Shown: one piece after another, positions 1 through 31,825 of the stretch
Layout of the letters: each line of letters begins with the position of its first letter
How positions within the stretch are numbered: position 1 is the first letter of the stretch
Origin: a virus
IMG/VR virus record: IMGVR_UViG_3300048067_000332
Location: 1 to 31,825 of that record
DNA length: 31,825 nucleotides
Strand: one strand, 5' to 3'
Notes under the pieces: generated by a model
The model's input: the letters and a program-made list of their open reading frames with translations, nothing else
What the model was told of the DNA's origin: nothing
Database searches by the model: none
Made by a program: the position numbers and the translations under genes

Positions 1-232
1 CTATTTCCTTTAATAATTGCGCACCCATGTTTTCAAATGGATTTTCTAAATTTATTTCTTTTGAAATTGTTACCCCGTCATTAGTTATTACCGGCATACC
101 CTTTTTTTTGTCTATAACAACGTTATTACCATTCGGACCTAATGTAGACCCTACTGAATCAGAAACTTGCTGTATACCGGCTGCTAATAGCTCCCAAGCC
201 TCTGGTCCGCTTTTGATAATTTTAGCTGTCAT
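1..232 (-). CDS. groEL: Chaperonin GroEL, N-terminal part (gene continues at the other window end)
   Basis: This is the first 77 codons of a group I chaperonin subunit, the ATP-driven folding chamber. Residues fall on E. coli GroEL numbering: T30 in the STLGP motif, D52 in NDGVTISKE, and FENMGAQ at 66-72, all ATP-site or equatorial-domain signatures. The ATG at 232-230 has a GGGAG ribosome site 10 bases upstream (247-243). The frame runs off base 1 and resumes at 31825: counting the shared terminal 'ct' once gives KEI-ASKTNE-VSGDGTTTA, a normal GroEL junction, and a 546-residue protein against 548 in E. coli. It lies downstream of the lysis-like genes in the same direction. The 96 bases before it hold no convincing promoter, so it is probably read with the late genes. 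Identity is secure; that the ends are adjacent in the real genome is a strong inference. Confidence 0.95.
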   Translation of the reverse strand, partial: MTAKIIKSGPEAWELLAAGIQQVSDSVGSTLGPNGNNVVIDKKKGMPVITNDGVTISKEINLENPFENMGAQLLKEI

Positions 233-328: not shown

Positions 329-529
329 TTATTTAATTTTATTAAAGTATCTTCTTCTTAAATAATTTATAGGTATAGACAAAAATTGACCTTGCGCCCA
401 TAGCATAAAACTATTTTGTATAGGTATTTTAAAAATGTATATTGCTTCAAAAACTAGAATACAATTTATTAAATTTGCTAATAATATATCAATAAATGTT
501 TCAACCAGTGATAATTTTCTTGATTGCAT
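329..529 (-). CDS. Small phage membrane protein, QSR-motif (DUF7220-like)
   Basis: This is a 66-residue protein starting MQSRKLSLVE, followed by one or two hydrophobic segments (about 12-31 and 38-55), and ending in a basic LRRRYFNK tail. This arrangement (QSR..S..E start, two hydrophobic stretches, Leu-Arg-Arg end) matches a family of small phage membrane proteins of unknown function that I recall as DUF7220. The ATG shares its A with the TAA of the gene before it, so translation is probably coupled. The position just before groEL and after a coiled-coil membrane protein suggests a lysis or membrane role. That role is inference only; membrane character is visible. Confidence 0.7.
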   Translation of the reverse strand: MQSRKLSLVETFIDILLANLINCILVFEAIYIFKIPIQNSFMLWAQGQFLSIPINYLRRRYFNKIK

Positions 530-1071
530 TATATTAAAAATGATACTGCAATTTTTATTAAATTTTCAATATCTATTGTTAAAAGTTTTGTGTAAACTAA
601 AATTGATATAGCTACAATTGCTATTAAACTATTTTTAAATCGTTTTAATTTTTTATCTATTGAGTTATTAAAGAATAAAATCTTTTGTATTAGATAATAG
701 TCGTTTGTTAATTGCATTTGTTTTGCTGTTAGTGCGTTATATCGACTCTGTAAATCTTCGATTGTTTTCGTACTTCCTAACCGCTCTTTTAACTTTATTT
801 TTTCAAGTTCTTCGGCTCTTTGCATTTCATCTATTTTGTCAAATCTAAAATCAATTTTTTCAAGTCTTTCAGTATTATATTTTAATGACTGTTCCATATT
901 TTTAATGCTTTGACATATGCTTGGTAAAGTTTTTGATTGCAATGTGTCAAACTCTTTCCACTTGCTTATTGAGTTTTCAGCTTGTGGCCTTAAAACTTCG
1001 TCAATAATTGTTTCTAGGCGTGTTAATGTCTGTTTTATGTCTTCATTTCTTTGTGCCATGACAGTACCCAT
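529..1071 (-). CDS. Coiled-coil protein with C-terminal membrane anchor
   Basis: This 180-residue protein is not a family I recognise. Residues 1-140 are highly charged and rich in heptad-like Leu/Ile, predicting a long coiled coil. Residues about 148-163 and 168-180 are hydrophobic after a KKLKRFK stretch, so the protein is probably held in the inner membrane by its C-terminus, with the coil in the cytoplasm. The architecture resembles XhlA-type or other lysis-cassette accessory proteins, but no signature proves it. The start at 1071 overlaps the preceding gene by 29 bases; the in-frame ATG at 1059 (MAQRNED) is an alternative and neither has a strong ribosome site. It is coupled by one base to the next small membrane gene. 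Confidence 0.7.
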   Translation of the reverse strand: MGTVMAQRNEDIKQTLTRLETIIDEVLRPQAENSISKWKEFDTLQSKTLPSICQSIKNMEQSLKYNTERLEKIDFRFDKIDEMQRAEELEKIKLKERLGSTKTIEDLQSRYNALTAKQMQLTNDYYLIQKILFFNNSIDKKLKRFKNSLIAIVAISILVYTKLLTIDIENLIKIAVSFLI

Positions 1072-1522
1072 TATAGAAACTTTCAGCCTTCAATAAGACT
1101 TCTTTGGGCGATAAGTTAGTATACACAAAACTTTTTTTTGATAAGTAGCGACTAAAATACAGGTCTGCAAGCTCACTACAAAAAAACTTTTTTTTGTTTT
1201 GTATTTTTATACCAAAAAAACCCAATAATACCCCTACAAAATCATAAGAAATATTTTGTTTTACAAGTTGGTCCAAATATTGAATAAATTCTTTACCTGC
1301 AAACGATTCTTTATTAAATGGCAATTTTATTGTAACAATAGGCTTTGCTAACTGTTTTTTTGTTTTTGTTACACCTTTACGTGATAAAGCCTGGTATATA
1401 CCTACTTTAGGTATTTCAATACTTACATGATTCACTTTTGAATTGGTTTTCAATTTAATTATACTAGCAAATAAGTAGTATAGTTTATTAGAATATCCGT
1501 GTATGTATATGTGTTCTGTCAT
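1043..1522 (-). CDS. Permuted papain-fold (NlpC/P60, YiiX-like) cysteine hydrolase
   Basis: This 159-residue protein carries the pattern of circularly permuted NlpC/P60 hydrolases: an early histidine in NHVSIEI (H32), a YDFVGVLLG segment (93-101) and the late catalytic-type cysteine in FFCSEL (C115). In that family Cys and His form the active site and cleave peptide or amide bonds, often in peptidoglycan. No signal peptide or membrane segment is visible. It starts two bases after the short fibre gene and overlaps the following coiled-coil membrane gene. It could be a virion-associated or lysis enzyme. Family assignment is from motif spacing; substrate is inferred. Confidence 0.75.
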   Translation of the reverse strand: MTEHIYIHGYSNKLYYLFASIIKLKTNSKVNHVSIEIPKVGIYQALSRKGVTKTKKQLAKPIVTIKLPFNKESFAGKEFIQYLDQLVKQNISYDFVGVLLGFFGIKIQNKKKFFCSELADLYFSRYLSKKSFVYTNLSPKEVLLKAESFYNGYCHGTKK

Positions 1523-5239: not shown

Positions 5240-5253
5240 GTCTTTACCTTTAC

Positions 5254-5811: not shown

Positions 5812-5815
5812 TTTA

Positions 5816-6469
5816 CTAACCTCCTATAAATGGTTCATTACCAAGTTTTCTAGTTGCGCCTATAGTAGGTTGTAACATCCTGGCATACGCATCCATTGCT
5901 TGTTGTGCTTTTACTTGTCTTGCTTCTTCAATCTCTTTTAATTTTTGCTGTTCTTTTAATTTAGAAACTTCTTCTAAAAGTCCTTGTTTTAAACTTCCTG
6001 CTGATATTTTTTTTCTCAATTCAGCTTCGGGTCCTCTAACTCCTGCTTGTTGCAACGATAATTCAGATTGTGCCAATCCTCTTTGTTGCTCTGGTGTTTG
6101 CCCTAAGTTTATTAACCTTTGCATATTCGTGATAGCTGCCGGCGTCCCACTCATTCCTGCTAACCCCATGTTTGCTTGTAGTAATGCTTGTTCGGCACGT
6201 TGTTGCGCTTGTTGTCCCCCTAATGCTTTCCCTGCTGCTATATCCCGTTCTAAACCTAATTGTTTTTGCCCTTGTTGAATTGCTATATCTGTTATATATC
6301 TTTGTAAGTCAGATTCTCTTTTTGCTAATTTTTCTTTCTCTTTCCCTTGAAAGAACGGGTCGACTACATCGCCAACAATTGGCGTGCTTCTTAATGCATA
6401 TTCCCCTACTTTACCTACTGCTTTTCCTACTGACTTGGTTGCTTTCCATGCATCGCTAAAAATACTCAT
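5816..6469 (-). CDS. Gln/Ala-rich virion protein, paralogue of its downstream neighbour
   Basis: This 217-residue protein has an N-terminus (SIFSDAWKATKSVGKAVGKV) resembling the short amphipathic start of many phage internal virion proteins. A helical Gln-rich middle follows, then AGVRGPEA (about 142-149) and QQAMDAYARMLQP (about 189-201), shared with the next gene. It ends TRKLGNEPFIGG. Ribosome site GGAAGG lies about 10 bases before the ATG. An 82-base AT-rich gap separates it from the nozzle gene upstream, the largest gap within this structural block. Probable ejection or core protein; the paralogy is directly visible, the role inferred. Confidence 0.7.
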   Translation of the reverse strand: MSIFSDAWKATKSVGKAVGKVGEYALRSTPIVGDVVDPFFQGKEKEKLAKRESDLQRYITDIAIQQGQKQLGLERDIAAGKALGGQQAQQRAEQALLQANMGLAGMSGTPAAITNMQRLINLGQTPEQQRGLAQSELSLQQAGVRGPEAELRKKISAGSLKQGLLEEVSKLKEQQKLKEIEEARQVKAQQAMDAYARMLQPTIGATRKLGNEPFIGG

Positions 6470-6551
6470 ATTAATTCACCTTCCAATTATACATTAAATT
6501 TATAACAGTTTTTTTATAATTTTTTATCATTTTTTTAAATTTTTTATTAAT

Positions 6552-9261: not shown

Positions 9262-9520
9262 GATTCACCTCTATTGCTGTTTCAAAGCTTGGATTGACGT
9301 TTAATTTATCTAGTTCTTTTCGTAATGCTTCAATGTCCTCTTTTTCTTCTATAGTAGCATATTTTTGAAACTTCACATTGTCGCGTAACCATTCAATACT
9401 GACCATAAAATCATGTAAATTGTTTTTGGTTGTGTCATTATTGTACATATCCTTTTGATGGAAAAACCGTCTTATGTCATGCAATAATTTTTTATCTACT
9501 TTAGAACTAAATAGGCTCAT
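9248..9520 (-). CDS. Small protein of unknown function in the tail cluster
   Basis: This is a 90-residue charged helical protein with no recognised family. It has a basic N-terminal half (DKKLLHDIRRFFHQKD) and an acidic helical segment (TIEEKEDIEALRKELDKL). It overlaps the preceding gene by four bases and the adaptor gene by 14, so all three are probably translated together. Tail assembly chaperone or minor head-tail protein are possibilities suggested only by position. Confidence 0.6.
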   Translation of the reverse strand: MSLFSSKVDKKLLHDIRRFFHQKDMYNNDTTKNNLHDFMVSIEWLRDNVKFQKYATIEEKEDIEALRKELDKLNVNPSFETAIEVNHEGI

Positions 9521-9786
9521 TGTGTAACTTCGTCGAAAATTGTTTGTATTTGATTTTTTTCATCTTCTGAAGCATTTGCATCGAAATTTTTGTTTGCACG
9601 TAAAGTGTCAATACTGCTTTTTAGCTCATTTTTTTGTGACAACAATTCTTTTTCTTGACTTTTTTTAAATTGACCAAGCGCAGCCTCTTGCAAACTAAAA
9701 ATGTCTCTATAATTTTGCAAATTTAGTTTATAATTTTTGTAGTTGTTTACTAACTCGTGATTATTGTCGATATTTTCTAATGTCAT
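9517..9786 (-). CDS. Small coiled-coil protein in the tail cluster
   Basis: This 89-residue, largely helical protein has a long Lys/Glu/Gln-rich coil (about 10-75). It is not recognised. It starts two bases after the large fibre gene ends and overlaps the next gene by four bases. Its place directly after the fibre gene is where some phages encode a fibre assembly chaperone, which is a guess. Codon use and spacing match its neighbours, so it is likely real. Confidence 0.6.
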   Translation of the reverse strand: MTLENIDNNHELVNNYKNYKLNLQNYRDIFSLQEAALGQFKKSQEKELLSQKNELKSSIDTLRANKNFDANASEDEKNQIQTIFDEVTQ

Positions 9787-9788
9787 TT

Positions 9789-12700
9789 TTATTTCTCCTT
9801 ATTTGCTTTGTATTCTACACCGAACTTTTCAAATTCCTGCATTGCTATAGCATCTTTTCGATCACCAAAAATCAGAATATTATATATTCCACTCTGATCT
9901 ACAACAATTTTTGCTCGTTTTCCCCCTTCGATTACCTCACCCCACGCCCTACCAAAATGTTTAAATGGATTTGCCCACACTAAACTGTCTTTGTTTAAAT
10001 GCTCAAAATAGTCGGGCAAGTCAATATAATTATCGCCTTCACTACACTTAAGCTGGTACTTGTATATATTACCCCCCGCACTTGGTGTTTCCACAAAGTA
10101 ATGGCGCAATCTGTGGGTGTCGGTTTTTGCTGGGTCTGGGTGTGCAATGTCAAATGAGCCTGAGCCTTTGGACATCGCCCCCGTAACATTTAAACTACCG
10201 TAAATGTAGGTATTCTTTGTACCTCCGCCGTGAATGTTAAATCGCATAATTAAATCGTCACTATTCCACCCGTGCGGTACGTGAATGTCCATTGCCCCAT
10301 TTACATTTGAGTATCCGCCCCCATAGCTTCCATACGCATAGCCATAATACCGCATCCAATTATGAGTTCCGGTTCTAAACCCAGAATTTCTACGAATCTT
10401 AATGTGCTCATCTAGCACTATATGGCTTAATTCAGAAGTTCCCCCAGCATCAAGGTATCTTGACGTATTGTTTGAGTCAACAAATCGGGGGCAATAAAAA
10501 AAACCGTCATTAAGATCAAACCAACTCCATTCACCCCCCATTTGATCCCACCCACCTGAAAAATCATCGGCTTGGTTATTTAAATGGGGTAAAAAATAAG
10601 CTTTATTACTATTTACATGAATGGTAAATTCACGATTGCTGTCGGTATCATTAAAATGAATTGACGGGCTAGTGCCTCGGATATTAATTCCATCGTCACA
10701 CTCAAAGTTGCCGTCAATGATAAAATCACCATTTTGATTCATCCTTGCCATTTGGGAATTATCGTTTCTAAACAGAATGTCACCATCCCCAAGTGCATTA
10801 ATATATGTGTGAGAGTTTGCTTGAAACAAGAATCTATAATGATTTTCACCGTTGATCCATACTCCGCCATAGGTTGAATAGATAGGGTGCTGGCCTATAT
10901 TGACATCAACGTTAGACGTTGTCCCTGCCCTAATATTACCCAACACCTGTAAACGCTCGCTAGGCTGAAATGTCCCTATGCCAACGTTACCAGAATCGGT
11001 AAGCGTAATCCCCTGAATACCCGAATCGTCTAATATTGATATCCCAGCGTTGCTTCTGGCACGAATCCCATCTGTCGCTATGTATTGCCCTGAATTTTGA
11101 GTAAACAAATCTCTCGGGTCCACGACCCCAGTATTAGCGTCTACATACGCCTTAATTGCTTTAGCACTAGCCAACGTATCATCGCTTGAGCTTACCGCTG
11201 TTAAATCTGTATCTAACACACCTGACTTTAGATTATCAACCTCTAAATCACTTATTGTTGTATTATCTGCGCTTATCGCTGGAAGTCTCGCTTCTGCCAA
11301 AGTTCCACTTGATATATTGCTTGCATCAGTAGTGTCTGCATTTGCAACATTATTTAAACCCACATCTGATTTTGTTAAGTTTAAAGCTGATTTTAGAGTT
11401 GTATCAATATCCAAGTCTTCCACATCGCCTGTACCTGCTGTCGTTCTACCTTTGACAGTCCCAGTTGCAACGTGTGCCATTTTTGCATTGGTTACGGCTT
11501 CATCTGCAATAGTTAAGGTCGTAGCACCTGTAACATCACCTGTGTGTGTTGCATTGGTCACTTTGGCGTTGTTGGTTGTAATGTCAGATTCCATCGTGTC
11601 TAGGTCTACGGCTTGTGTAACAGATATGTGACCTAGCTTAGTTTGCTCTGCACTTGTTATCGTCGTGGGTTTGTTAAGTATCTGAGCATCGCCACTAACA
11701 GCGTTCCAATCGGCATTTGCATTAACTTCTGCTCCTTCTGCAATTCCAGAAAGTTTTGTTTTTTCAGCGTCCGTAAATACATTTGTGTCTGCATTGTTTT
11801 CATAGGCTGTTTTTATTTCAGCATCTGTTTGATCGGCTGTTGCCCCAGATTCAATTCCGTTTAATTTTGTTTCATCACTTGCTGTAAAATGCTTGTTTGT
11901 CGCTGTTTCTGAAATATCATCAAGTGTTAATGATCTAGTCTCGGCTTGGTTTGAGGCATTACCGATGAAAACATTTCCATCGTTAAGGTTAGGTACGTCA
12001 TTGGTACGCCCTGCGCCACCTACCTTAATACTACCTGCGCTTGCATGACTTCTCATCACCTTACCAATGTTTTGGATAAGTGATGATTGACCACTTGGCT
12101 TTGTTGCCGTTAGTGTTCCAGTAGTTGATATATATAAAATATCGCCTTGAGTATATGATGATGTATCTAAACCAGTAATGGTGCCAAACGTCACCACGTT
12201 AACATTGGCATTTGCGCTTACTGTTTCGTTAGCCAATCCAAAACAAGGCATTTTGTTTGCATCGTCTGAATCAGCAATAGATACAATTGGTTTATTCCCA
12301 GAAATATCGTCACCTGATATATACACTGGATCACCTTTAGTTAATGCCTCACCAGCCTTTGCTTGAAATATTGTTGCGCCACGCATATTCCCAATCAGTG
12401 TTGTGGCTGTAATCTCACCTGTAATATCAATATTACCTGTACCTGTAATATCTTGACTGTTTAAATCTAAATTGCCACCTAGCTGTGGCGTTAGGTCTTC
12501 TATGATATTTTCCAAGTATCTACCATCTAAATCAACGGTAACTGTCGAGGAATCATTTAGTGTAAGTGTTAATACGCCATCGCTCGTATTAAAACTCGCA
12601 CTTGTTACATAAGTATTATTGCTTGAAGTTGGAAAATTAACAATTATGTTTCCATCAGTTTTAACAAGCGTTAAATTACCAGTATTAGAATCGTAACTTG

Positions 12701-12935
12701 CGCTTGTAATTTCCTGACTATCAATGGTTTCTTTAATAAGTTTTTCGCTAACAACATTTGTATCGCTTAATGGATCACTCCATCCCGTTGTTGTATCAAC
12801 ATCTGGCGCAACTTGAATACCTACAACTGGAACATAAGGGTTTTGTTCGGTTCCTTCCCCTACTGTTTTAAATCTTTTAAAACCTGCATTTCCGTCTTGT
12901 ATATTATAACTTGGCATAATTTTGTAATTTCCCAT
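9789..12935 (-). CDS. Large tail fibre protein
   Basis: This is the largest gene, 1048 residues. The N-terminal 20 residues (MPSYNIQDGNAGFKRFKTV) look like a virion-binding tip. Residues about 85-160 are beta repeats. Residues about 340-460 hold the common phage fibre repeats (TKLNGIESGATADQT, TKLSGIAEGAEVNANADWN, DAQILNKPTTIT). Residues about 620-900 are a beta-helix-like region ('GISILDDSGIQGITL', 'GNVGIGTFQPSERLQVLG', as in S74-type fibres). The C-terminal 130 residues (SGSFDIAHPDP, LRHYFVETP, AWGEVIEGGKRAKI) resemble a fibre-tip or intramolecular-chaperone domain. Two starts are possible, at 12935 and at the ATG seven codons later; neither has a clear ribosome site. A strong hairpin precedes it. 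Probable host-receptor binding. Confidence 0.85.
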   Translation of the reverse strand: MGNYKIMPSYNIQDGNAGFKRFKTVGEGTEQNPYVPVVGIQVAPDVDTTTGWSDPLSDTNVVSEKLIKETIDSQEITSASYDSNTGNLTLVKTDGNIIVNFPTSSNNTYVTSASFNTSDGVLTLTLNDSSTVTVDLDGRYLENIIEDLTPQLGGNLDLNSQDITGTGNIDITGEITATTLIGNMRGATIFQAKAGEALTKGDPVYISGDDISGNKPIVSIADSDDANKMPCFGLANETVSANANVNVVTFGTITGLDTSSYTQGDILYISTTGTLTATKPSGQSSLIQNIGKVMRSHASAGSIKVGGAGRTNDVPNLNDGNVFIGNASNQAETRSLTLDDISETATNKHFTASDETKLNGIESGATADQTDAEIKTAYENNADTNVFTDAEKTKLSGIAEGAEVNANADWNAVSGDAQILNKPTTITSAEQTKLGHISVTQAVDLDTMESDITTNNAKVTNATHTGDVTGATTLTIADEAVTNAKMAHVATGTVKGRTTAGTGDVEDLDIDTTLKSALNLTKSDVGLNNVANADTTDASNISSGTLAEARLPAISADNTTISDLEVDNLKSGVLDTDLTAVSSSDDTLASAKAIKAYVDANTGVVDPRDLFTQNSGQYIATDGIRARSNAGISILDDSGIQGITLTDSGNVGIGTFQPSERLQVLGNIRAGTTSNVDVNIGQHPIYSTYGGVWINGENHYRFLFQANSHTYINALGDGDILFRNDNSQMARMNQNGDFIIDGNFECDDGINIRGTSPSIHFNDTDSNREFTIHVNSNKAYFLPHLNNQADDFSGGWDQMGGEWSWFDLNDGFFYCPRFVDSNNTSRYLDAGGTSELSHIVLDEHIKIRRNSGFRTGTHNWMRYYGYAYGSYGGGYSNVNGAMDIHVPHGWNSDDLIMRFNIHGGGTKNTYIYGSLNVTGAMSKGSGSFDIAHPDPAKTDTHRLRHYFVETPSAGGNIYKYQLKCSEGDNYIDLPDYFEHLNKDSLVWANPFKHFGRAWGEVIEGGKRAKIVVDQSGIYNILIFGDRKDAIAMQEFEKFGVEYKANKEK

Positions 12936-13521: not shown

Positions 13522-14526
13522 TTACGACTCTTGTACATTAGTGAATACACCGTTGTAACGTCGTCCCATACAAACAAGTTGTAAACCTAGGTAAGACTTA
13601 GCCGTGATAATTGGCTGATTAGGTAAAATTGCTTGCCCATCCATAGGCGACTGTTTACCGTTAAAACCATATCTGTGACACATTTTAAAAGTGTTTGTGC
13701 TAAGTACATACACATGATTATCTTTTGAATAATCGTCGACAATGTAATCAATTCCGCCAAACTTTAATGCTTCAAAACCAGCAAACGCAGTTTTTTCTTG
13801 TCCAAAACGTTTTTGGTCTTGCAACGAATTTTCAAAAGCTGTGTGAATGATGGAATTAGATAGTATTAAGTTAGGTTTAAATGTTTCACCGTACTCATTA
13901 CCGAATTTGCTTCCTCTTGCTTTTAGCTTGTTTACCAAAGAACTAAAAGCGTCATAGTTAATGTCTGCAAACGCAATTGAAGTAGTATTTCTTTCAGAAA
14001 GGTATGCATCGGCAGGAAAATCGGTATCCAATAAACCAGCGTATGCAGTTCCAGAAGCACCAAGTACATCCTCTAAACCTGAAATAGATAGTTCATTGTT
14101 GTCTGTAGATGAACCAAAAAAGGATTCAGACAAAACTCTTACAGTTTTATTTTTAGACGCGTTCATTGTCTGTTTTATCAAACTGCGAACTGCTCCACTG
14201 TCATCGCCAGCTTCAGCAAAATCTTTTAATGAATTTGAATATTTCTGTGCATAATAAGCCATCTCTAACTGACCAAAGCTATGTGTCTGCTCAACATCAC
14301 TTGACTCAACAGTGTTGATACCATTTGTCCAACCGTTTGTTGAATTTTCTGCCAATTCTACTGGAAATCGAATGCTTGTTCCACCGGCAACGTATTGTAA
14401 TTGCTCATTAGCAACCATTCTCGAATATAGTGGGTTTGCTTTGCTGAAATTGTCCACGTTTGATTCTAAAAAGTGAGGACCAATTAGCGCCGCGGCTTTG
14501 TTTAATTGTTCATTTGTTAAAGCCAT
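13522..14526 (-). CDS. Major capsid protein (HK97 fold)
   Basis: This 334-residue protein is the typical length for a short-tailed phage capsid subunit without a cleaved delta domain. Segments such as GGTSIRFPVELAEN (about 48-61), an E-loop-like QLEMAYYAQKYS (about 86-97) and the C-terminal AGFEALKFGGIDYIVDDYS (about 247-265) followed by KMCHRYGFN are characteristic. It lies directly after the scaffold gene and before a decoration-like gene. No maturation protease gene is visible nearby, so the head probably matures without cleavage or uses the scaffold as in P22. The ribosome site aGGAG precedes the ATG. Confidence 0.9.
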   Translation of the reverse strand: MALTNEQLNKAAALIGPHFLESNVDNFSKANPLYSRMVANEQLQYVAGGTSIRFPVELAENSTNGWTNGINTVESSDVEQTHSFGQLEMAYYAQKYSNSLKDFAEAGDDSGAVRSLIKQTMNASKNKTVRVLSESFFGSSTDNNELSISGLEDVLGASGTAYAGLLDTDFPADAYLSERNTTSIAFADINYDAFSSLVNKLKARGSKFGNEYGETFKPNLILSNSIIHTAFENSLQDQKRFGQEKTAFAGFEALKFGGIDYIVDDYSKDNHVYVLSTNTFKMCHRYGFNGKQSPMDGQAILPNQPIITAKSYLGLQLVCMGRRYNGVFTNVQES

Positions 14527-16150: not shown

Positions 16151-18184
16151 ATGTATGTTGTGGAAAACGAATATTTAAAGTATTTAGACGAACTCAAAAA
16201 AATTGCAATCGCATATCATGGGGAAAAAGGTCTAAATTTAAAAAATAAAATAGAAAGATATCACGCATATAATTATAAAACTACAAATGCTAAAGGTGAA
16301 TTATATAACGCTAATCAACCTGATTATAATATAATTAAGCCTATAGTAGATACAGTTAAAACAATATCTTTAGACGCTTATATATCAACACAAGTAAAAA
16401 TAAAAAACCTTAACCATCAAAGTTTAGATCAAATAAATATCATAGAGTCTATTGCTGATATACTCGATGATGTTTGGTCCAACGTTAAAATAAATACACA
16501 ATTAGACAATAAATTGGCGCATGTTTTAAAAGATTCATTAGTTTACGGTTTTGGTGTAGTAAAAACATTCTGGTCTAAGTCGGCATCTGAGACAGGTATG
16601 GGAGATGTAAGCATTGAGCGAATAAACCCTCAAGATTTTTATCCTGAACCGAACGCAACCAGTATTGAAAATGCTAATTATATATTTGTTAAACGTGTAA
16701 TTTCTAAATTTGAACTAATTAAAGAATATAAAAACCAACCAAAAATTTTAAAGAAAATTGAAAAACTTACAACTTACGCAAGACATGAAAAAATTGACGA
16801 ACAAGCAAGCGGAAAACTTGTAAAATCAAATCATAAAAGTGGTGAAGGGCAACCGGAAAGCTCTGGAACGTCAATAAGTGAAGATAAATCTACAGTATTT
16901 TCACCTCAAAGCAATATAGTAATTTGGGAGTGTTATCAAAAAGATGATACCGTCCTAGTCCCTTTAGACAAAGACGATAGCAAAATTAAAACCATGAAAA
17001 CCGAAGAACGGTTCAAATACCCCAATGGGCGTGTGACTATATATAGTGGAAATGAAATTCTTGAAGATAAAGCCATAGATTATCCGTTTGGCTTCCCTTT
17101 TGATGTACTAAAAATAAATGAAAGTGACACTATCCATAGCGATGGTATCGTTCAACCACTTGCTAAAATACAAGATAGTATTTTTAAGTCATACGATAAA
17201 TTAAATACTTTAATTCAAAAATACCAAAGTTTTTTAGTTACCGACCCTATGTCTATAAATAAAAATGATATTGCTAATAAAAAGGACATTGTAGAAATAA
17301 AACCAGGGGGAAGGTTTAACGCCCCAGTTATTGTAACCAATAAACTTATTCAAGATATACAACTTTTGCGTGAACATATTGAGCAATTAAAACAAGATGC
17401 ATACAAAACAACACGTATTAATGAGATTATGCTCTACGGCGAACGTCCAACGGGTGTAAATAGCGGTAAAATGGTCAGAGACCTTATTGAGTCCCCTATG
17501 TCAGCAATTCGTGAAATACAACGGAATTATAAAACATTTCTTAAACAAGTTAGTGACAAGGCTATCATATTAATACAGTTATATTATAACCAAGATAGAA
17601 TTATTAGAATGACAAGCGGAAAAATGATATCTATTCAGCGTGACCAATTTGAAAATACATTTATAAACCAATATCAAAAAGACGAAAATAATAAACTAGT
17701 TACTTTAACTGAAGAAATCCAAGCTGATTTAACCTTAGGTGAATATGAAATTGAAATTACCACGGGATCGTCATTGCCACAATCTCAAGCGGCTATTGCT
17801 TCCACTACCGTTGAACTTGCCCAACAAGGCGTTTTTGGTGATATAAGTAACCCTGATGTTAAAGAACTAATACTAAAAACCCTCGATTACCCTAACTACC
17901 GTGCAATTGTTAATAAAATAAGAGATGAACAAGCACAAATGCAACAAATGGATGAGCCTGAACCAGAATTTCAAAATTATTTAAAGAATGTCAGTATGTC
18001 ATTAAAAGATATAACAGAGTTTATTCAGTTAATGCCAATTGAGAAACAACAAGGCGCAGTAAGCATTATCAGCGAATCTTTAGGAATCGGGTTACCAGAA
18101 ATGCCAATGACGCCAATGCCAGAACAAGAAATTATTGAACCTGTTATTGATGAAACTAACCCCCCTTTAGAAGTAACGTTTTAG
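16151..18184 (+). CDS. Portal protein (P22-like)
   Basis: This 677-residue protein forms the dodecameric ring through which DNA enters and leaves the head. Typical features are the N-terminal YNIIKPIVDTVKTISLDAY region (about 59-77), INPQDFYPEP (about 158-167), GFPFDVLKINESD (about 314-326) and, near 537-545, TGSSLPQSQAA, the usual C-terminal portal helix start. The long Gln/Met/Pro-rich tail (QMQQMDEPEPEF..., PEMPMTPMPEQE) suggests a barrel extension. It is the only large gene on the plus strand and is flanked by oppositely facing late genes. Its end overlaps the convergent zinc-ribbon gene by four bases. No ribosome site precedes the ATG; a GTG three codons later also lacks one. Confidence 0.9.
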   Translation: MYVVENEYLKYLDELKKIAIAYHGEKGLNLKNKIERYHAYNYKTTNAKGELYNANQPDYNIIKPIVDTVKTISLDAYISTQVKIKNLNHQSLDQINIIESIADILDDVWSNVKINTQLDNKLAHVLKDSLVYGFGVVKTFWSKSASETGMGDVSIERINPQDFYPEPNATSIENANYIFVKRVISKFELIKEYKNQPKILKKIEKLTTYARHEKIDEQASGKLVKSNHKSGEGQPESSGTSISEDKSTVFSPQSNIVIWECYQKDDTVLVPLDKDDSKIKTMKTEERFKYPNGRVTIYSGNEILEDKAIDYPFGFPFDVLKINESDTIHSDGIVQPLAKIQDSIFKSYDKLNTLIQKYQSFLVTDPMSINKNDIANKKDIVEIKPGGRFNAPVIVTNKLIQDIQLLREHIEQLKQDAYKTTRINEIMLYGERPTGVNSGKMVRDLIESPMSAIREIQRNYKTFLKQVSDKAIILIQLYYNQDRIIRMTSGKMISIQRDQFENTFINQYQKDENNKLVTLTEEIQADLTLGEYEIEITTGSSLPQSQAAIASTTVELAQQGVFGDISNPDVKELILKTLDYPNYRAIVNKIRDEQAQMQQMDEPEPEFQNYLKNVSMSLKDITEFIQLMPIEKQQGAVSIISESLGIGLPEMPMTPMPEQEIIEPVIDETNPPLEVTF

Positions 18185-19327: not shown

Positions 19328-20611
19328 TCACATCCTTAAATTGTACGGTTTCATAATAGGGGCAAATACTTTAGCAGGGCTATCGACCTCAATATTTTTT
19401 AAATATTGCACTGCATATTGTACGGCATCCACTGAGTGATCATCTTTTTTTACTACCTCCTCTCGACGGTTCTCAGTTTCATTTAATCTTGCCGGCTTAT
19501 ATTTGTACCCTTTGTGTTGTTTTATAACGTAATCTAGGGTATCAAAAATAAATAGCTTATTTTGATGAAATAATTTATTCACCAATAAGATATTATCAAA
19601 TTTACTCGCCTTGTTTGCCTCAAATAACCTAAAACCTTGCTGTTGCAAGTCCAGCCACCATGACCCTTGATCTCTGTCCGGTGTTTTCATTGAATAATCA
19701 GCAATGATATTTAAATTACCATGTCTTGTTAATGCTTGGCATACTTCATGGAATTGAGCTTGTGACTTGTGCCATTCATCGCATATGAACATATTGCCTG
19801 ACTCATCCTTAGCAACCCACACAAGGCTAGTATCATTAATGCCGGCATGGTCATACCCTATGCAAACATAAAAATGCTTTTGTATCCATATTTTAGGTGT
19901 AATGTGATGCGCTTTAAATGCCGTGTATACTCTATCGCTTGTTCTATCCCATCCACCATATATATACCGTTCTATATAGTCCTGGGGATAATCTCTTAGT
20001 AATCCCTCCATGTATTTTGGGTCCAAGTTTGCTTCATTATCTTGCATACTTCCATTAATAAAAAAAACATGTTCGGGTTTATTTTCTACGTACCGTTCTT
20101 TTGCCCAACTATCGGCTGGGTTGCCTTCCACTAATAAAAACCGTTTTGGTACAGCCTGCCCTGATAAACGGCCCAAAACCTGTAGAAATAGTTTGTGTGG
20201 TATTTCTTCAGCCTGGCAAAGTGTCGCTCCGTCATATTCGTTTGATAATATCTTGGTGTCTTTATCAAATGCTCTGAAATTAATTCGACTTCCATTGCTA
20301 AAGTTAGCATTTCTTTCTGATTTATTATATGTATAACCTGAAGTATCGGGGGGGAACAATTGCATAAACTGAGGAATAACGGAATCGTTTAATTCTGGAT
20401 ATGTCGACCGGCAGAATAACCAATTTACGTCTTTATATAAAGAACATAAATAAAATGTTATTAACATGGTAATTAATGACTTACCACAACGGAATGCACC
20501 AAAATAAGCCAATTCTTCCGGCGCATCGTCTCGAATCTGCATATCTTCCGTAAATATTTGGCTAAAGAATAAAGACTGTTTAGGATTTAAGACAATATTG
20601 AACCTATCCAT
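19328..20611 (-). CDS. terL: Terminase large subunit
   Basis: This 427-residue packaging motor couples ATP hydrolysis to DNA translocation and cuts the concatemer. ATPase: Walker A GAFRCGKS (38-45), Walker B with catalytic glutamates LCQAEE (131-136), coupling segment LLVEGNPAD (159-167). Nuclease (RNase H fold): D254 in GYDHAG, E279 in ICDEW, D305 in IADYS and D391/D395 in DDHSVDA. All key residues are present, so it should be active. The start shares a base with the upstream small membrane gene. Length is normal for podoviral or P22-like terminases. Headful or cos packaging cannot be decided here; ends that close into a circle fit either. Confidence 0.95.
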   Translation of the reverse strand: MDRFNIVLNPKQSLFFSQIFTEDMQIRDDAPEELAYFGAFRCGKSLITMLITFYLCSLYKDVNWLFCRSTYPELNDSVIPQFMQLFPPDTSGYTYNKSERNANFSNGSRINFRAFDKDTKILSNEYDGATLCQAEEIPHKLFLQVLGRLSGQAVPKRFLLVEGNPADSWAKERYVENKPEHVFFINGSMQDNEANLDPKYMEGLLRDYPQDYIERYIYGGWDRTSDRVYTAFKAHHITPKIWIQKHFYVCIGYDHAGINDTSLVWVAKDESGNMFICDEWHKSQAQFHEVCQALTRHGNLNIIADYSMKTPDRDQGSWWLDLQQQGFRLFEANKASKFDNILLVNKLFHQNKLFIFDTLDYVIKQHKGYKYKPARLNETENRREEVVKKDDHSVDAVQYAVQYLKNIEVDSPAKVFAPIMKPYNLRM

Positions 20612-22239: not shown

Positions 22240-22842
22240 TTAAAATACTCGTTCATCACCAATTTTTTGGTCATTGAACCAACGTTGAGTGTAAATTTTT
22301 TCAGTTATAAAATTCTCATATACACCATTCCCATGTTTTTTTGAGTCTTTCCATTCTCCCTGATAATTTCCATGTTTTTTTAATAAAATACCTTGCCCGT
22401 TAGGCTTGTTATATTCCCATTGTCCGTAGTATTCAGTACCATTTTTATATGTATACCTACCTACTCCATGCATTTTATTATTTTTAAACTGCCCAATATA
22501 CTTGTCGCCATTAAAACATTTATGAACACCTTCCCCATCGGCTTTCCCTTCTTTCCATTGTCCATAAAATATCCGGTTACCATTCCAAATATGACCACCT
22601 TCACCGTTAAATTTTCCATGCTCCCACTGCCCAATAAATGTATGGCCGTTTCTTAAAACTAAAACACCTTTTCCATGCTTTCTATTTTCTAAATCATATT
22701 GACCGGTATAAATTGCGTTAGTTTGTCGCATTTGTGTTGCTGCATTTTCTGCCTGTTGTCTAGGGTTTACGCTCATTAAATCTCTATCAGTATCCCTAGC
22801 AACTCTTTCTCTACGCCCTATAAAATTTAATAATGATCTCAT
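22240..22842 (-). CDS. MORN-repeat protein
   Basis: This 200-residue protein has six MORN repeats covering about 45-195: YTGQYDLENRKHGKGV, FIGQWEHGKFNGEG, FYGQWKEGKADGEG, YIGQFKNNKMHGVG, YYGQWEYNKPNGQG and YQGEWKDSKKHGNG. MORN repeats form elongated beta hairpins and mediate protein or lipid contact; they are abundant in eukaryotes and in bacteria that live in eukaryotic cells. The first 44 residues are basic and helical (LLNFIGRRERVARD) and could bind membrane or nucleic acid. It is the last gene of the replication operon, 12 bases after rusA, with an AAGGGA ribosome site. Its role in a phage is unknown. Confidence 0.9.
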   Translation of the reverse strand: MRSLLNFIGRRERVARDTDRDLMSVNPRQQAENAATQMRQTNAIYTGQYDLENRKHGKGVLVLRNGHTFIGQWEHGKFNGEGGHIWNGNRIFYGQWKEGKADGEGVHKCFNGDKYIGQFKNNKMHGVGRYTYKNGTEYYGQWEYNKPNGQGILLKKHGNYQGEWKDSKKHGNGVYENFITEKIYTQRWFNDQKIGDERVF

Positions 22843-26342: not shown

Positions 26343-26870
26343 TTATTTATCATTTTTTACCCTTTTGAAATCCATTTCCTTAACCCATAAATTCGACATT
26401 TCTTTTTTTAGTTCCATACTTGCAAATCGGACTGCAAACCAATCCTGTTTCATAGCTTCCAAGACAACCTCACGATCCCCTTGCAATTCCTCACTGGCAT
26501 ACCACAACGCATCCCCATTTTGCTTGACTGCTTCCAAGACAACCTCTTTATCCCCTTTCAATTCCTCACTGGCCCTCCTCAACGCATGCCCATTTTTCTT
26601 GACTGCTTCCAAGACAACTTCTTTATCTTCTCTCAATTCCTCACTCGCATACTCCAACGCATGCCCAATTTTCTTGACTGCTTCCAAGACAACTTCTTTA
26701 TCTTCTCTCAATTCCTCACTCGCATGGTACAACGATAATCCATCCTGCTTTACCGCCTCCATGACAATTTCCCGATCATTACGCAACTTATCACTTGCAT
26801 ACCCCAACGCAAGCCCGAATTTCTTCACTGCTTCTATCACCTTTGCTTTTTTGCTATTTTTATTTATCAT
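26343..26870 (-). CDS. DUF4116 repeat protein 4
   Basis: This 175-residue protein is built of about six 25-residue DUF4116 units of the form DKEVVLEAVKKNGHALEYASEEL. Each unit is two short amphipathic helices with conserved V-EAVK, G-AL and YAS. It is the last of four tandem paralogues and ends with a divergent basic tail (MSNLWVKEMDFKRVKNDK). It starts MINKNSKK, like its sisters. DUF4116 is of unknown biochemical function and is expanded in bacteria such as Legionella and Chlamydia-like species that live in eukaryotes. Likely a repeat scaffold for protein contact. Confidence 0.85.
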   Translation of the reverse strand: MINKNSKKAKVIEAVKKFGLALGYASDKLRNDREIVMEAVKQDGLSLYHASEELREDKEVVLEAVKKIGHALEYASEELREDKEVVLEAVKKNGHALRRASEELKGDKEVVLEAVKQNGDALWYASEELQGDREVVLEAMKQDWFAVRFASMELKKEMSNLWVKEMDFKRVKNDK

Positions 26871-26878
26871 TTTATTTC

Positions 26879-27385
26879 CTACACTACCCAGAAACCAACG
26901 ATCATAACTAATATTAAAATCTGTAATATTAATATCTGATACGAAAATCTAACATGAGAACTATTTTGGCACTTACAAAAAAGTGAATTAAAAGTTTTTT
27001 CTACTGGTTTATCTTTGCGAATACATTCAAATAAAAGACGTAATATTTGCTTCAAAAACTTTTTATTACAATGCAATCTGTATGAGGCATTACTTAATAC
27101 ACGCAGAGACGCCTTAAATGTTTCTAACATAAATTCCGGATCATTACGCAAGCCAATACTCACACCAAACAACGAAAAATCCTTTAATTTTAACGCTTCA
27201 ATGACAATCTCTCTATCCCCCCTTAATAACTCTGAAGCAAACCGCAACGCCCTGCCATTCTGTTTTACCGCTGTCATTACGACTTTACGGTCCCCCCTAA
27301 GTTCCGCACTTGCGTACCTTAACGCATACCCATTCTGTCTAACCTTTTTCAATACCTCATCTCTTGTACTGTTTTCATTAATCAT
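26879..27385 (-). CDS. DUF4116 repeat protein 3 with C-terminal membrane anchor
   Basis: This 168-residue protein has three well-kept DUF4116 units (VRQNGYALRYASAELRGDR, VKQNGRALRFASELLRGDR and a weaker third, 1-80), then degenerate units. It then has a Cys-containing stretch (NSLFCKCQNSS) and a final hydrophobic segment of about 20 residues (SYQILILQILILVMIVGFWVV region, 147-168). The layout is that of a tail-anchored protein, different from its three soluble sisters. It lies 8 bases before the next gene. Where the anchor inserts (bacterial or host cell membrane) is unknown. Confidence 0.8.
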   Translation of the reverse strand: MINENSTRDEVLKKVRQNGYALRYASAELRGDRKVVMTAVKQNGRALRFASELLRGDREIVIEALKLKDFSLFGVSIGLRNDPEFMLETFKASLRVLSNASYRLHCNKKFLKQILRLLFECIRKDKPVEKTFNSLFCKCQNSSHVRFSYQILILQILILVMIVGFWVV

Positions 27386-27411
27386 TTTTTGTCCTCTTTT
27401 TTTTACTCCAT

Positions 27412-28083
27412 CTATTTTTTCTTTTTTAATTTGTTAAGTAAAATCATAAACTCTTTATCATTTTTCAAGTTTTTTGATGCGTATTGTAATGCGTAAACAT
27501 TTTGCTTAACCGCTTCAAAAACAACATCTTTATCGTTTTTTAAATTTTCTGATGCATAATACAATGCGAACCCACATTCTTTTGCCGCTTCCAAAACAAC
27601 ATCTTTATCATTTTGTAAGTTTTCTGAGGCGTATTGTAATGCGTACCCATTTTGCTTAACCGCTTCTAGCACAACATCTTTATCATTTTGTAAGTTTTCT
27701 GATGCATAATACAATGCGAACCCACATTCTTTTGCCGCTTCCAAAACAACATCTTTATCATTTTGTAAGTTATCTGAGGCGTATTGTAATGCGTAACCAT
27801 GTTTTTTAACCGCTTCTATCACAACATCTTTATCATTTTGTAAGTTTTCTGAGGCGTATTGTAATGCGTACCCATTTTGCTTAACCGCTTCTAAAACAAC
27901 ATCCCGATCATTCCTTAATTCATCACTGGCATATTTCAAAGCTCTGCCATGGTGCTTGACCGCTGCCATCACCACACCTTTATCCCTACGTAATTTCTTA
28001 GAGGCATACCGCAACGCCACTCCCCATCTATCCCTCTTCACTGCTTCTAACACTTCTTTTTTTGTACTTTCTTCATCAATCAT
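27412..28083 (-). CDS. DUF4116 repeat protein 2
   Basis: This 223-residue protein has eight DUF4116 units, almost the whole protein. The central units are nearly identical (VKQNGYALQYASENLQNDK alternating with AKECGFALYYASENLQNDK). Pairs recur every 50 residues, showing recent duplication of a two-unit block; at DNA level 77 bases repeat perfectly 150 bases apart. N-terminus MIDEESTKKEVLEAVKR matches the sister genes. Uniform repeats should give an extended superhelical scaffold. Second gene of the four-gene operon. Confidence 0.85.
   Translation of the reverse strand: MIDEESTKKEVLEAVKRDRWGVALRYASKKLRRDKGVVMAAVKHHGRALKYASDELRNDRDVVLEAVKQNGYALQYASENLQNDKDVVIEAVKKHGYALQYASDNLQNDKDVVLEAAKECGFALYYASENLQNDKDVVLEAVKQNGYALQYASENLQNDKDVVLEAAKECGFALYYASENLKNDKDVVFEAVKQNVYALQYASKNLKNDKEFMILLNKLKKKK
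27545..27771. repeat. 77-bp perfect direct repeat, 150-bp period, in DUF4116 gene 2
   Basis: 27545-27621 and 27695-27771 are identical. Each spans just over one 25-codon unit, and the 150-base period equals two units. The intervening and following units are close copies too. This is coding repeat DNA, prone to in-frame expansion and contraction. Confidence 0.9.
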
Positions 28084-28148
28084 TTTTTTTCCTCCATTAT
28101 TAATATGTTTTTATAATAAACAGTAAACTATTTTATATCAATGTTTTA

Positions 28149-29012
28149 TTAATCATCGAACTCGCTTAAAAGTTCATTTGAATAAGCATTTAAAACTTTG
28201 TCCACTCCTAAGTTTAAAATAGCTTCAGCTATAATTTCCCTATCTGCTTTTAATTCCTTTGATGCATACGCTAACGCAAACCCACATTTCTTAACTTGAG
28301 CCATAATTATTCTTCTATCTGATCTTATTTCCTCTGAGGCATACTCTAAGCGAGTATAATCCTGCATAACCGCTGTCATAACCAACTCACGATCACCCCG
28401 CAACCGCAGTGATGCATGCGATAACGCATAAGAATTTTTCCTCACCTCTTCCATCATCAGATCTTTATCATTTCTTATTTCCTGTGGGAGGTCATATAAG
28501 TCAAACTTATCATGCTTTAGTGATTCTATAACCAAACTACGATCACCTTTTAATTTCTGTGAGGCATAGTCCAACGCCTCCCCATTTTTCGTTACAGCTG
28601 CCATGACTATATCTTTATCGTCTCTTAATTTAACTGAGGCGTAACCTAAGGCACATCCATTCTGCTTAATAGCTTCCATGACAATTTCTCGATCATCCTT
28701 TAACTCCGTTGAGGCATGCTTTAACGCTTTCCAATTCTGTTTAACGGCTACCATAACCAACTCACGATCACCCTTTAAATCCGGTCTAGCATACTTCACC
28801 GCATATCCATCCTGCTTAACCGCTTCCATGACAACTTCACGATCTTGCCTAAGTTCCCTTGATGCATGCGCCAACGCATACCCTTTTTGCTTAACCGCTT
28901 CCAACACTATCTTTTTATCATTACTGAATTCTATTGAAGCTGCGAATAAATTATTCCAATCTTTCTTAACCGCTTTTAACACTTCCTCTTTTGTACTGTT
29001 TTCATTAATCAT
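28149..29012 (-). CDS. DUF4116 repeat protein 1 (first of the operon)
   Basis: This 287-residue protein, the longest of the four, has ten to eleven DUF4116 units of DR.VMEAVKQ.G.AL.YAS.EL type. They are more diverged from one another than in gene 2, so this copy is older. It ends with an acidic tail (YSNELLSEFDD). It starts MINENSTKEEVLKAVKK. The ribosome site AGGAG lies six bases before the ATG at 29012, behind a strong promoter. It is transcribed away from the 51-residue plus-strand gene. No signal peptide, no enzymatic motif. Confidence 0.85.
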   Translation of the reverse strand: MINENSTKEEVLKAVKKDWNNLFAASIEFSNDKKIVLEAVKQKGYALAHASRELRQDREVVMEAVKQDGYAVKYARPDLKGDRELVMVAVKQNWKALKHASTELKDDREIVMEAIKQNGCALGYASVKLRDDKDIVMAAVTKNGEALDYASQKLKGDRSLVIESLKHDKFDLYDLPQEIRNDKDLMMEEVRKNSYALSHASLRLRGDRELVMTAVMQDYTRLEYASEEIRSDRRIIMAQVKKCGFALAYASKELKADREIIAEAILNLGVDKVLNAYSNELLSEFDD

Positions 29013-29483: not shown

Positions 29484-29846
29484 TTATGTATATTTTACCT
29501 TTAAAGTTATATGTTTATTGTTTTCAAAAAGGTTACACAACTCACTAAAACATTGTATATCATCTTCTAATATACCAATACAACCTTGTGTTCCAGGTAA
29601 ATTTCCATCCGGGTGTATATACAAACCATATCGATTAGTTTCAAATAAAGGGTCTAGTTTTGCTACCCATGGAAACTCTGTTCTGTGAAACGCTTCTGTT
29701 TTACCTTGCTCTATCTTCATTTTATACGGTCTATTTACTGCATATATGCCATTAGGTAATGGACCTTTTCCAAACCCACCAGTAACTACGTTATATTGTT
29801 TATCATTAAAGGTTAATATTCCTTCAGCCTTGTTTTTATCAGTCAT
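29484..29846 (-). CDS. L,D-transpeptidase (YkuD)-like peptidoglycan enzyme
   Basis: This 120-residue protein has YGLYIHPDGNLPGTQGCIGI (73-92): catalytic-type H78 and C89 with the family's H-P-D-G...G-T-x-G-C-I-G spacing. YkuD and DUF2778 relatives make or cleave L,D bonds in peptidoglycan; phage-encoded forms could act in lysis or cell-wall modification. Next to a holin-like gene, a lysis role is likely. The ATG at 29846 has no ribosome site. The frame stays open upstream for 28 codons with no ATG, GTG or TTG, back to a run of ten A inside the end of the holin-like gene, so it may be entered by -1 frameshifting. Confidence 0.75.
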   Translation of the reverse strand: MTDKNKAEGILTFNDKQYNVVTGGFGKGPLPNGIYAVNRPYKMKIEQGKTEAFHRTEFPWVAKLDPLFETNRYGLYIHPDGNLPGTQGCIGILEDDIQCFSELCNLFENNKHITLKVKYT

Positions 29847-29911: not shown

Positions 29912-30418
29912 TTAGCGTTTTTTTTTTAATTTATCTATCGCACCAGTTGTAAACATTCTAAAGACATCTTTTAAACCCAAAGAGTGAATCAATATCCCAT
30001 ACATTGCAAACTCGAAAAATCTTGGTGCTTTGGCTAATGCATCCCATGCTATGTTAAAGTTAATACCCACAAAATCAGGATTAAATAAAATTATAAAAGG
30101 CTCTAAAAAGTGTAATAAAACGATAAACAAAATTGTATATACTAAGATATCGTCTTTTAATGTTTTTTCGGACGCTTTTAATACCGCTAAATCATACGCA
30201 TTATCTGACTTAGTAGTTGTTTCAATTTGTCTACTTTTTGCCTCTAGTTTGCAAATTTGTATTTTTTTTCTAGCCCTCTCTTTTTCTAAGTCTAATTTAA
30301 TCTTTTGCTGTTCCGCTTCAACTTTACCCTGGGCCCTAATTTGTTTAATCTCTTCTTTCTTTTTGTATATTTCAGTTATTTCACCAGCTGCTTTACCAAA
30401 AATCCCACTTAAAATCAT
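29912..30418 (-). CDS. GTA-type holin-like membrane protein
   Basis: This 168-residue protein has a coiled, charged N-terminal half (about 15-70, EEIKQIRAQGKVEAEQQK...), then hydrophobic segments at about 91-113 (ILVYTILFIVLLHFLEPFII) and 136-150 (FEFAMYGILIHSLGL). Between them is the ALAKAPRFFEF turn that matches the 'AL..lP.w' element of 3TM holins of the gene-transfer-agent release type. It would permit release of the wall enzyme next door. The ATG overlaps the groEL stop (ATGA), so it is coupled to groEL. It ends KLKKKR on a run of ten A. Confidence 0.75.
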   Translation of the reverse strand: MILSGIFGKAAGEITEIYKKKEEIKQIRAQGKVEAEQQKIKLDLEKERARKKIQICKLEAKSRQIETTTKSDNAYDLAVLKASEKTLKDDILVYTILFIVLLHFLEPFIILFNPDFVGINFNIAWDALAKAPRFFEFAMYGILIHSLGLKDVFRMFTTGAIDKLKKKR

Positions 30419-31825
30419 TCTTCATGCTCCTTTTTACTTCCAGGTACTCTAGCTATCAATACTGAAGTCGTTAATAACAATCCTACAATAGACGCTGCAT
30501 TTTGTAATGCACTTCGTGTAACCTTCGCTGGGTCAACTATTCCCGCCTCGAACATGTCTACAATTTCGCCCGTTCTGGCATTATAACCGTTTCCAGTTTT
30601 GCTTTTCTGTATTTTATCGATAATGACAGACGGCTCATTGTCCGAATTTTGGACAATTGTTTTAAAAGGTATAGACAATGAATTAATTAAAATATGATAC
30701 CCTACAAAGAAATCTGTTTCATCTTTAACCATACCGCCCATGTCCTCGATATGGTCTTTGTTTTTTATTCTTTCTTTTAATTTATTTTGACATAAAAGCA
30801 ATGTTGTCCCACCGCCTGGCACTATTCCTTCTTGTACCGCTGCTTGAGTAGCTGATAAAGCATCCTCAACACGGTATTTAGTTTCTTTCAATTCAGTTTC
30901 AGTTACTGAACCTATTTTAATAACCGCTACGCCACCAGATAATTTAGCCAATCGCTCACGGTATGTATCTATGTCATACGCTGAAGTTGCACTGTCAATC
31001 AAGTTTGTAAGTTCTCTTATTCTTTCTTGTATAGAATTCTGCTTACCTTTCCCATCAACAATAGTAGTATTGTTTTTAGTCGTTTTTATTTTACTTGCTC
31101 TTCCTAAATGTTCCAACTTTACCGATTTAAGGCCGGCACCCTTTTCGTCTGTTATGAACTCCGCCCCTGTAATTATGGAAATATCTTCTAATATGTTTTT
31201 TTTCTTAACTCCAAAACTAGGTGCTTTTATTGCCAATGCCTTTAATGAGCCACGCACGTTATTTACCACTAATGCTGATAACGCCTCACCCTCTATATTG
31301 TCCGCTATAAAAACAATTGGCTTTGATACTTTTGCAACTTGCTCTAATATTGGCAAAATATCTTTTAATGAGCTTATTGTTTTATCCGTTACTAATATAT
31401 AAGGGTCATTTAATTCTGAGATCATACTTTCTTTATCAGTAACCATATATGGACTAATAAACCCTTTATCAAAACTCATCCCCTCTACAAATTCCAATGA
31501 TGTCTGAATGCCAGTAGTTTCCTCAACACTTATAATCCCGTCATTTCCAACGGTATCCATTGCTTTCGCAATTAATTTCCCAATTTCTGTATCATTATTT
31601 GAAGATATTGTTGCAACTTGCTCGATCGCTTCTTTTGTATTTATTTCTTTAGCGTAACTTTTTATAATCTCACATACATCGGATACCGCTTTTTCTATCC
31701 CTTTTTTAATTTTTATAGGATTGTGACCAACATTAATTGCTTTCAATCCCTCTTTAAAAATTGCATTTCCTAAAATAGTCGCTGTTGTCGTTCCATCCCC
31801 GGACACTTCATTAGTTTTTGACGCT
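30415..31825 (-). CDS. groEL: Chaperonin GroEL, remainder (continues from base 1)
   Basis: This is the rest of the chaperonin whose first 77 codons lie at 1-232. Numbered from that start, the residues fall exactly on E. coli positions: D87 in GDGTTTAT, D398 in YRVEDAL, and apical-domain residues F199, Y203, M204, L234, L237, L259, V263, V264, the surface that holds substrate and GroES. GGVAVIKIG and EGIVPGGG are present. The C-terminus ends VPGSKKEHEE; the flexible GGM tail of cellular GroEL is missing. Total length 546. The ORF could be begun at a GTG (31806), but the frame is open to the window end. No groES is present, so it may use the host's or work without one. Coupled by ATGA to the holin-like gene. 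Confidence 0.95.
   Translation of the reverse strand, partial: ASKTNEVSGDGTTTATILGNAIFKEGLKAINVGHNPIKIKKGIEKAVSDVCEIIKSYAKEINTKEAIEQVATISSNNDTEIGKLIAKAMDTVGNDGIISVEETTGIQTSLEFVEGMSFDKGFISPYMVTDKESMISELNDPYILVTDKTISSLKDILPILEQVAKVSKPIVFIADNIEGEALSALVVNNVRGSLKALAIKAPSFGVKKKNILEDISIITGAEFITDEKGAGLKSVKLEHLGRASKIKTTKNNTTIVDGKGKQNSIQERIRELTNLIDSATSAYDIDTYRERLAKLSGGVAVIKIGSVTETELKETKYRVEDALSATQAAVQEGIVPGGGTTLLLCQNKLKERIKNKDHIEDMGGMVKDETDFFVGYHILINSLSIPFKTIVQNSDNEPSVIIDKIQKSKTGNGYNARTGEIVDMFEAGIVDPAKVTRSALQNAASIVGLLLTTSVLIARVPGSKKEHEE

Follow-up and report, generated by a model that had tools for sequence, protein, structure and literature searches.

A group I GroEL without a detectable GroES partner in a small phage genome

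The groEL locus and its phage

The window analysed here is a whole virus record, IMGVR_UViG_3300048067_000332, of 31,825 nt. It contains a groEL gene on the minus strand, which is split over both record ends, encodes 546 residues in total and accounts for 5% of the phage genome. The gene, its neighbours and the principal structural genes are as follows.

2..232, minus strand: groEL codons 1-77, the N-terminal part, running over the record end (Pfam match at 14-166; homologue in the related contig L003)
329..529, minus strand: 66-aa membrane-type protein directly upstream of groEL (Pfam DUF7220, E=1.3e-6; PHROG 4276, E=2.2e-7)
529..1071, minus strand: 180-aa coiled-coil protein with a C-terminal hydrophobic segment, judged from its sequence (80% conserved in L003)
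1043..1522, minus strand: 159-aa papain-like/NlpC-P60-type hydrolase judged by eye, a possible lysis enzyme (weak PHROG 1128 match, E=7.6e-6; no significant Pfam match)
9789..12935, minus strand: tail-fibre-type protein of 1048 aa, a candidate client (PHROG 24456 tail fiber, E=7.3e-15)
13522..14526, minus strand: major capsid protein, a candidate client (PHROG 9953 major head protein, E=6.3e-24)
16151..18184, plus strand: P22-type portal protein, a candidate client (Pfam P22_portal, E=3.4e-22; PHROG 156)
19328..20611, minus strand: terminase large subunit (PHROG 2, E=8.7e-33)
29484..29846, minus strand: YkuD/Tlde1-like protein of L,D-transpeptidase fold, a possible lysis enzyme (Pfam YkuD, E=2.9e-7, above cut-off)
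29912..30418, minus strand: holin-like gene, 168 aa (30% identity to the holin annotated in Pseudoalteromonas phages ACA1/ACA2; 93% conservation in the relative described below)
30415..31824, minus strand: groEL codons 78-546 and stop, the C-terminal 469 residues in open frame (Pfam Cpn60_TCP1, E=2.6e-56; PHROG 5725 chaperonin GroEL, E=3.8e-130)

The two parts of groEL are out of frame when the record ends are placed directly end-to-end, and in frame once the terminal 'CT' present at both ends is counted singly; the same 2-nt overlap is given by blastn coordinates against L003. At the junction the window ends read GAAATAG / AGCGTC..., the L003 homologue at the same place is GAAATAGCGTC, and the L003 sequence across the joint reads ...GAAATAGCGTCAAAAACTAATGA.... 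In L003 the gene is unbroken at 9770-11377 and spans both window parts. Because of the end overlap and this unbroken homologue, the record appears to be, effectively, a genome of ~31.8 kb (~31,823 bp) that is either circularly closed or permuted. The initial annotation had placed a full-length group I GroEL at 30415-31825. Its length of 546 residues and its class are upheld by a complete open reading frame over the record ends that passes the GroEL equivalog cut-off, but only residues 78-546 lie within those coordinates and residues 1-77 are found at 232..2.

The holin-like gene and groEL overlap in 4 nt (ATGA) at the start of the former and the stop of the latter, an AGGAG lies within the groEL 3' end, and the AlphaFold model of the holin-like protein is of low confidence (pLDDT 60). 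With this overlap and an annotated holin homologue, the earlier proposal that groEL is coupled to a holin-like gene stands. So does the proposed lysis-gene neighbourhood, which consists of the YkuD-like and holin-like genes on one side and the putative hydrolase on the other.

Two related contigs from another metagenome, IMGVR_UViG_3300019708_000023 (19.6 kb) and _000028 (16.0 kb), share an exact 123-bp overlap at their groEL/holin end, and their other ends both lie inside the portal gene (one reaching residue 510, the other starting at residue 561). They seem to be the two halves of a single related genome, whose groEL neighbourhood can be taken as complete because of the exact overlap. The order of the genes flanking groEL is the same in the window and this relative, and the two GroEL proteins are 82% identical. 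The dN/dS of groEL between them is 0.136, in the same range as that of the capsid and other genes, and the gene appears to be under purifying selection in both phages. Near-identical pieces of the window phage also occur in other metagenomes (L021, L024), which marks it, on sequence recurrence, as a real and recurrent phage.

The portal protein found no match among phage records, the major capsid protein is only 24% identical to those of Myxococcus Mx8/Mx9, and the terminase is ~23% identical to those of many phages. The portal gene lies on the strand opposite to nearly all others, including capsid and terminase, and this inversion is kept in L022 and L023/L025. Four DUF4116-repeat genes at 26343-29012, with many more in the relative (L030 1559-5490) and extensive internal duplication, make up a rapidly changing phage cluster of repeat proteins. 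A 71-bp patch of 93% identity between window 9291-9360, in the gene of a 90-aa protein of the structural region, and L030 4951-5021, at the end of a DUF4116 gene of the relative, suggests an exchanged short coding module. The early region encodes a five-copy MORN-repeat protein (22240-22842; Pfam E=5.9e-24). Shine-Dalgarno motifs precede 22 of 40 starts (background 9%); since frequent motifs of this kind speak against a typical Bacteroidota host, such a host is disfavoured. No tRNA or Rfam matches were found in the window, and promoter and terminator scans of it remained at chance level.

The chaperonin and the search for a co-chaperonin

Against the NCBIfam TIGR02348 GroEL equivalog, the window protein scored 690.7 bits (cut-off 582.1) over residues 3-538. 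In the PDB it matched bacterial GroELs and an ancestral reconstruction best, with the usual domain layout. Individual residues were checked in an alignment that included the GroEL of E. coli K-12 and 99 others taken from bacterial contigs. The ATP/Mg site (T30, D52, G86-T91, D398, G414-G415, D495) is canonical at 17 of 17 positions in the window phage and its relative alike. The classic apical substrate/GroES contacts, scored at positions 199, 201, 203, 204, 234, 237, 259, 263 and 264, all fall within the bacterial repertoire in both phages (9/9). In the window protein they read FSYMLLLVV, and the two changes Y199 to F and F204 to M also occur in bacteria. At the double-ring interface K105, E461 and V464 are kept, A109 is replaced by V and R452 by K, and E434 is without counterpart.

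Several statements of the initial annotation were therefore confirmed at the level of residues: T30, D52, D87 and D398 are all present at E. coli numbering, the apical contacts, described there as nearly all kept, are complete, and the GGM tail is missing, the protein ending ...VPGSKKEHEE. The claim of exact E. coli numbering holds up to about residue 428 and is shifted by 13 afterwards (window 467 = E. coli 454), by an insertion after residue 428 of net 13 residues relative to E. coli, 11 of which are lacking in the relative. Because the TIGR02348 cut-off is passed and every classic GroES/substrate contact is kept, the window GroEL looks GroES-dependent. The retained apical residues are no proof of GroES use, since the same residues are needed for substrate binding.

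A gene for such a partner was sought by several routes. The Pfam Cpn10 profile (PF00166) gave no match at E<=10 in the window and none in the two contigs of the relative. Every frame of at least 35 codons in the window was searched with hmmsearch --max, using a GroES profile made from 61 bacterial proteins with filters off, and nothing rose above chance. In profile-profile comparison by hhalign of window ORFs together with their orthologues from relatives, the best ORF reached 1.35% probability, whereas the positive controls, four GroES proteins annotated in phages, scored 52-99.6%. Similarly, no T4 gp31-like PHROG matches were found among the small window ORFs. The earlier observation that no window ORF resembles GroES thus withstood all of these searches, and the window phage, having no groES of its own, does not carry a groESL cassette. 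In terms of sensitivity, the crAss-like control genome cr108 gave only a sub-threshold match, and a co-chaperonin whose divergence puts it beyond the reach of profiles could still be present.

Proposed mechanism, alternatives and origin

We propose, with moderate confidence, that the gene encodes a canonical group I GroEL of a small tailed phage with a P22-type portal, made late and forming ATP-hydrolysing heptameric rings that are capped by host GroES. Expression would probably be late, from the strand on which tail, lysis and GroEL genes follow one another in that order, because groEL lies downstream of the tail and putative hydrolase genes, overlaps the holin-like gene and is followed by the YkuD-type gene. 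The subunits would assemble into heptameric rings which bind and hydrolyse ATP as E. coli GroEL does, and unfolded phage proteins would be captured on the conserved apical helices H/I. The ring would then be capped by host GroES; a host-supplied lid is suggested because the phage has none while the lid-binding surface is retained. Clients may be lysis enzymes and/or virion proteins, with capsid, portal and fibre as possible candidates.

A narrower role, which we regard as unlikely though deserving of attention, is that GroEL mainly keeps the YkuD-like enzyme and the 159-aa putative hydrolase soluble until the holin opens the membrane. The location of groEL between lysis-type genes, overlapping the holin-like start in an order kept in the relative, speaks for this role, but adjacency by itself is weak evidence, small lysis enzymes seldom need encapsulation, and phage GroELs are found elsewhere in tail (phiKT1024) and replication modules (phi38:1). 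The in vitro client reported for the chaperonins of EL and AR9 is endolysin (PMC9598537), and in L004, an unrelated contig, a gene of amidase endolysin type lies ~1.5 kb upstream of groEL, both of which again favour a service to lysis.

Lower in our estimation, and improbable, is an open ring of the EL/OBP/AR9 type that holds or refolds its clients lid-free. Such chaperonins are known from phages EL, OBP and AR9 (PMC7185714, PMC9598537), and neither the window genome nor its relative encodes a GroES. However, the window GroEL is only about 25% identical to that of AR9, its best structural matches are bacterial GroELs of the usual domain layout, and its apical sites are canonical at 9/9, compared with 3/9 in AR9 and in the Pseudomonas jumbo phage HHBS47_1, both of which are without a Pfam-detectable GroES. 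Members of this type share the absence of an encoded GroES with the window phage, but combine it with a divergence (about 22-25%) and degenerate apical contacts that the window protein does not show. The initial annotation had drawn an analogy to Pseudomonas phage EL, whose gp146 has about 22% identity to GroEL and shows no interaction with the GroES of E. coli (PMC7185714). The analogy does not extend to a protein that passes TIGR02348 and keeps the apical contacts. Further, EL is a poor model for it because the EL chaperonin ignores E. coli GroES and failed at rhodanese refolding (PMC7185714).

Mixed rings, in which phage and host GroEL subunits assemble together and the host chaperonin is thereby retuned toward phage clients, are very doubtful: the inter-subunit and catalytic residues are canonical, which speaks for co-assembly, but identity to any bacterial GroEL is about 50%.

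This distance also bears on the origin of the gene. The window GroEL is ~48-54% identical to bacterial GroEL, and no bacterial GroEL closer than ~54% full-length identity was found in non-exhaustive scans of 80 loci (a GTDB contig scan), 149 genomes from a single phylum, and plasmid records, some of them misfiled chromosomes. GC3 and codon usage of groEL match the remainder of the window phage. Trees group the window and relative proteins together with full support; the pair sits on a long branch (~0.53 substitutions per site), and its closest neighbour shifts between a Fusobacterium GroEL (support 0.37-0.88) and large-phage GroELs (0.55). A recent bacterial fragment nested inside one host strain, an outcome allowed for in the initial annotation, was not seen. 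In view of the lack of a bacterial GroEL above ~54%, the phage-matching codon usage and the dN/dS of 0.14, groEL appears to be long resident in this phage lineage. Recent host-gene capture and mis-assembly were ruled out by the intact L003 gene, the phage-like codons and the lack of a close bacterial GroEL in these scans. A chimeric joining of a host groEL fragment to a phage contig, which the straddling of the record ends might suggest, is scarcely credible given the same codon usage and sequence distance, and is in practice refuted by the L003 relative, with its intact, 82% identical groEL at the same place in another metagenome.

Comparison with other chaperonins

The initial annotation regarded phage chaperonins as rare, which is an overstatement: GroEL matches were found in 287 of 50,697 phage records, and a dedicated family, PHROG 5725, exists. 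Such counts are inflated by groEL matches that are probably or clearly host DNA in 'phage' records (OR848861.1, PQ520251.1, CAKLQH020000021.1 and AFYI01000007.1); in Acinetobacter phage MD-2021a, groESL is flanked by bacterial genes and is plainly host DNA. Among the records inspected, which were part of the 287, those that are genuine GroEL phages have genomes of about 60 kb or more. In work attributed to Marine et al. from 2017, virioplankton GroEL viruses reportedly have genomes inferred to be above 70 kb, as compared with 31.8 kb for the window phage. Marine and soil viromes hold many GroELs (PMC5332604, PMC8390657). The virioplankton GroELs (Nishimura et al., 2017, PMC5332604), being divergent viral group I chaperonins from marine viromes, resemble that of the window.

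Five of the six named phages tested that have a canonical or near-canonical apical surface (at least 7/9) carry GroES. These carriers, with 7-9 of 9 apical positions, are Bacteroides DAC16, Flavobacterium immuto, Vibrio 2.275.O, 207E48.1 and phiKT1024. Among the named phages, the 735-kb LR756501 (apical 7/9, with only a weak GroES match of E=0.05) departs from this pattern in part, giving at least one more possible exception, and the window phage and its relative have 9/9 without GroES. Judged from these sequences, the combination of a canonical apical surface, no GroES and a small genome is unusual.

Other viral contigs without a detected GroES were also encountered. L004, L005 and L006 are contigs of apparently larger phages with no GroES in the contig, and their groEL genes (~9773-11341, 9773-11344 and 5167-6756, respectively) are flanked by proteins resembling small heat-shock (Hsp20) proteins. 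In L122 (4998-6620), and likewise in L118, L124, L126 and L144, groEL lies beside genes resembling those of NAD synthesis/nicotinamide salvage and peptide deformylase; GroES was not found in these five contigs.

Like bacterial GroEL (TIGR02348; E. coli), to which it is about 48-54% identical, the window protein has the complete set of domains and canonical residues at 17/17 positions of the ATP site and at 9/9 apical positions. It differs in lacking both a groES partner gene and the GGM tail, in a net insertion of 13 residues and in its location in a phage late region. Phages with both GroEL and GroES likewise have a group I chaperonin in a tailed phage; unlike the window phage, Cellulophaga phi38:1 (72.5 kb), Flavobacterium elemo (60 kb), immuto (160 kb) and Bacteroides DAC16 (178 kb) have their own GroES and larger genomes. 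EL gp146, OBP gp246 and Bacillus phage AR9 gp228 are phage GroEL-like proteins reported to be active without a phage GroES, which they have in common with the window (PMC7185714, PMC9598537), but they belong to giant phages, are GroES-independent and are about 22-25% identical to GroEL, with an apical score of 3/9 in AR9.

The canonical lid-binding surface and the lid gene, which are paired in other phages examined, are here separated. A groEL gene can evidently be worth its cost in a phage of ~32 kb, which counters the view that chaperonin phages are large, and the window phage offers a clean test case in which to ask whether the clients of phage chaperonins are virion or lysis proteins. More tentatively, this lineage may have one of the smallest genomes known with GroEL, and may combine a GroES-dependent barrel without a lid with host GroES in a hybrid machine, possibly dedicated to the timing or folding of lysis proteins. 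The closest parallel to such a machine is offered by T4 gp31 and RB49 CocO (PMC9598537), which likewise supply one half of the GroEL-GroES machine and borrow the other. These phages supply the lid and the window phage would supply the barrel, as a mirror image.
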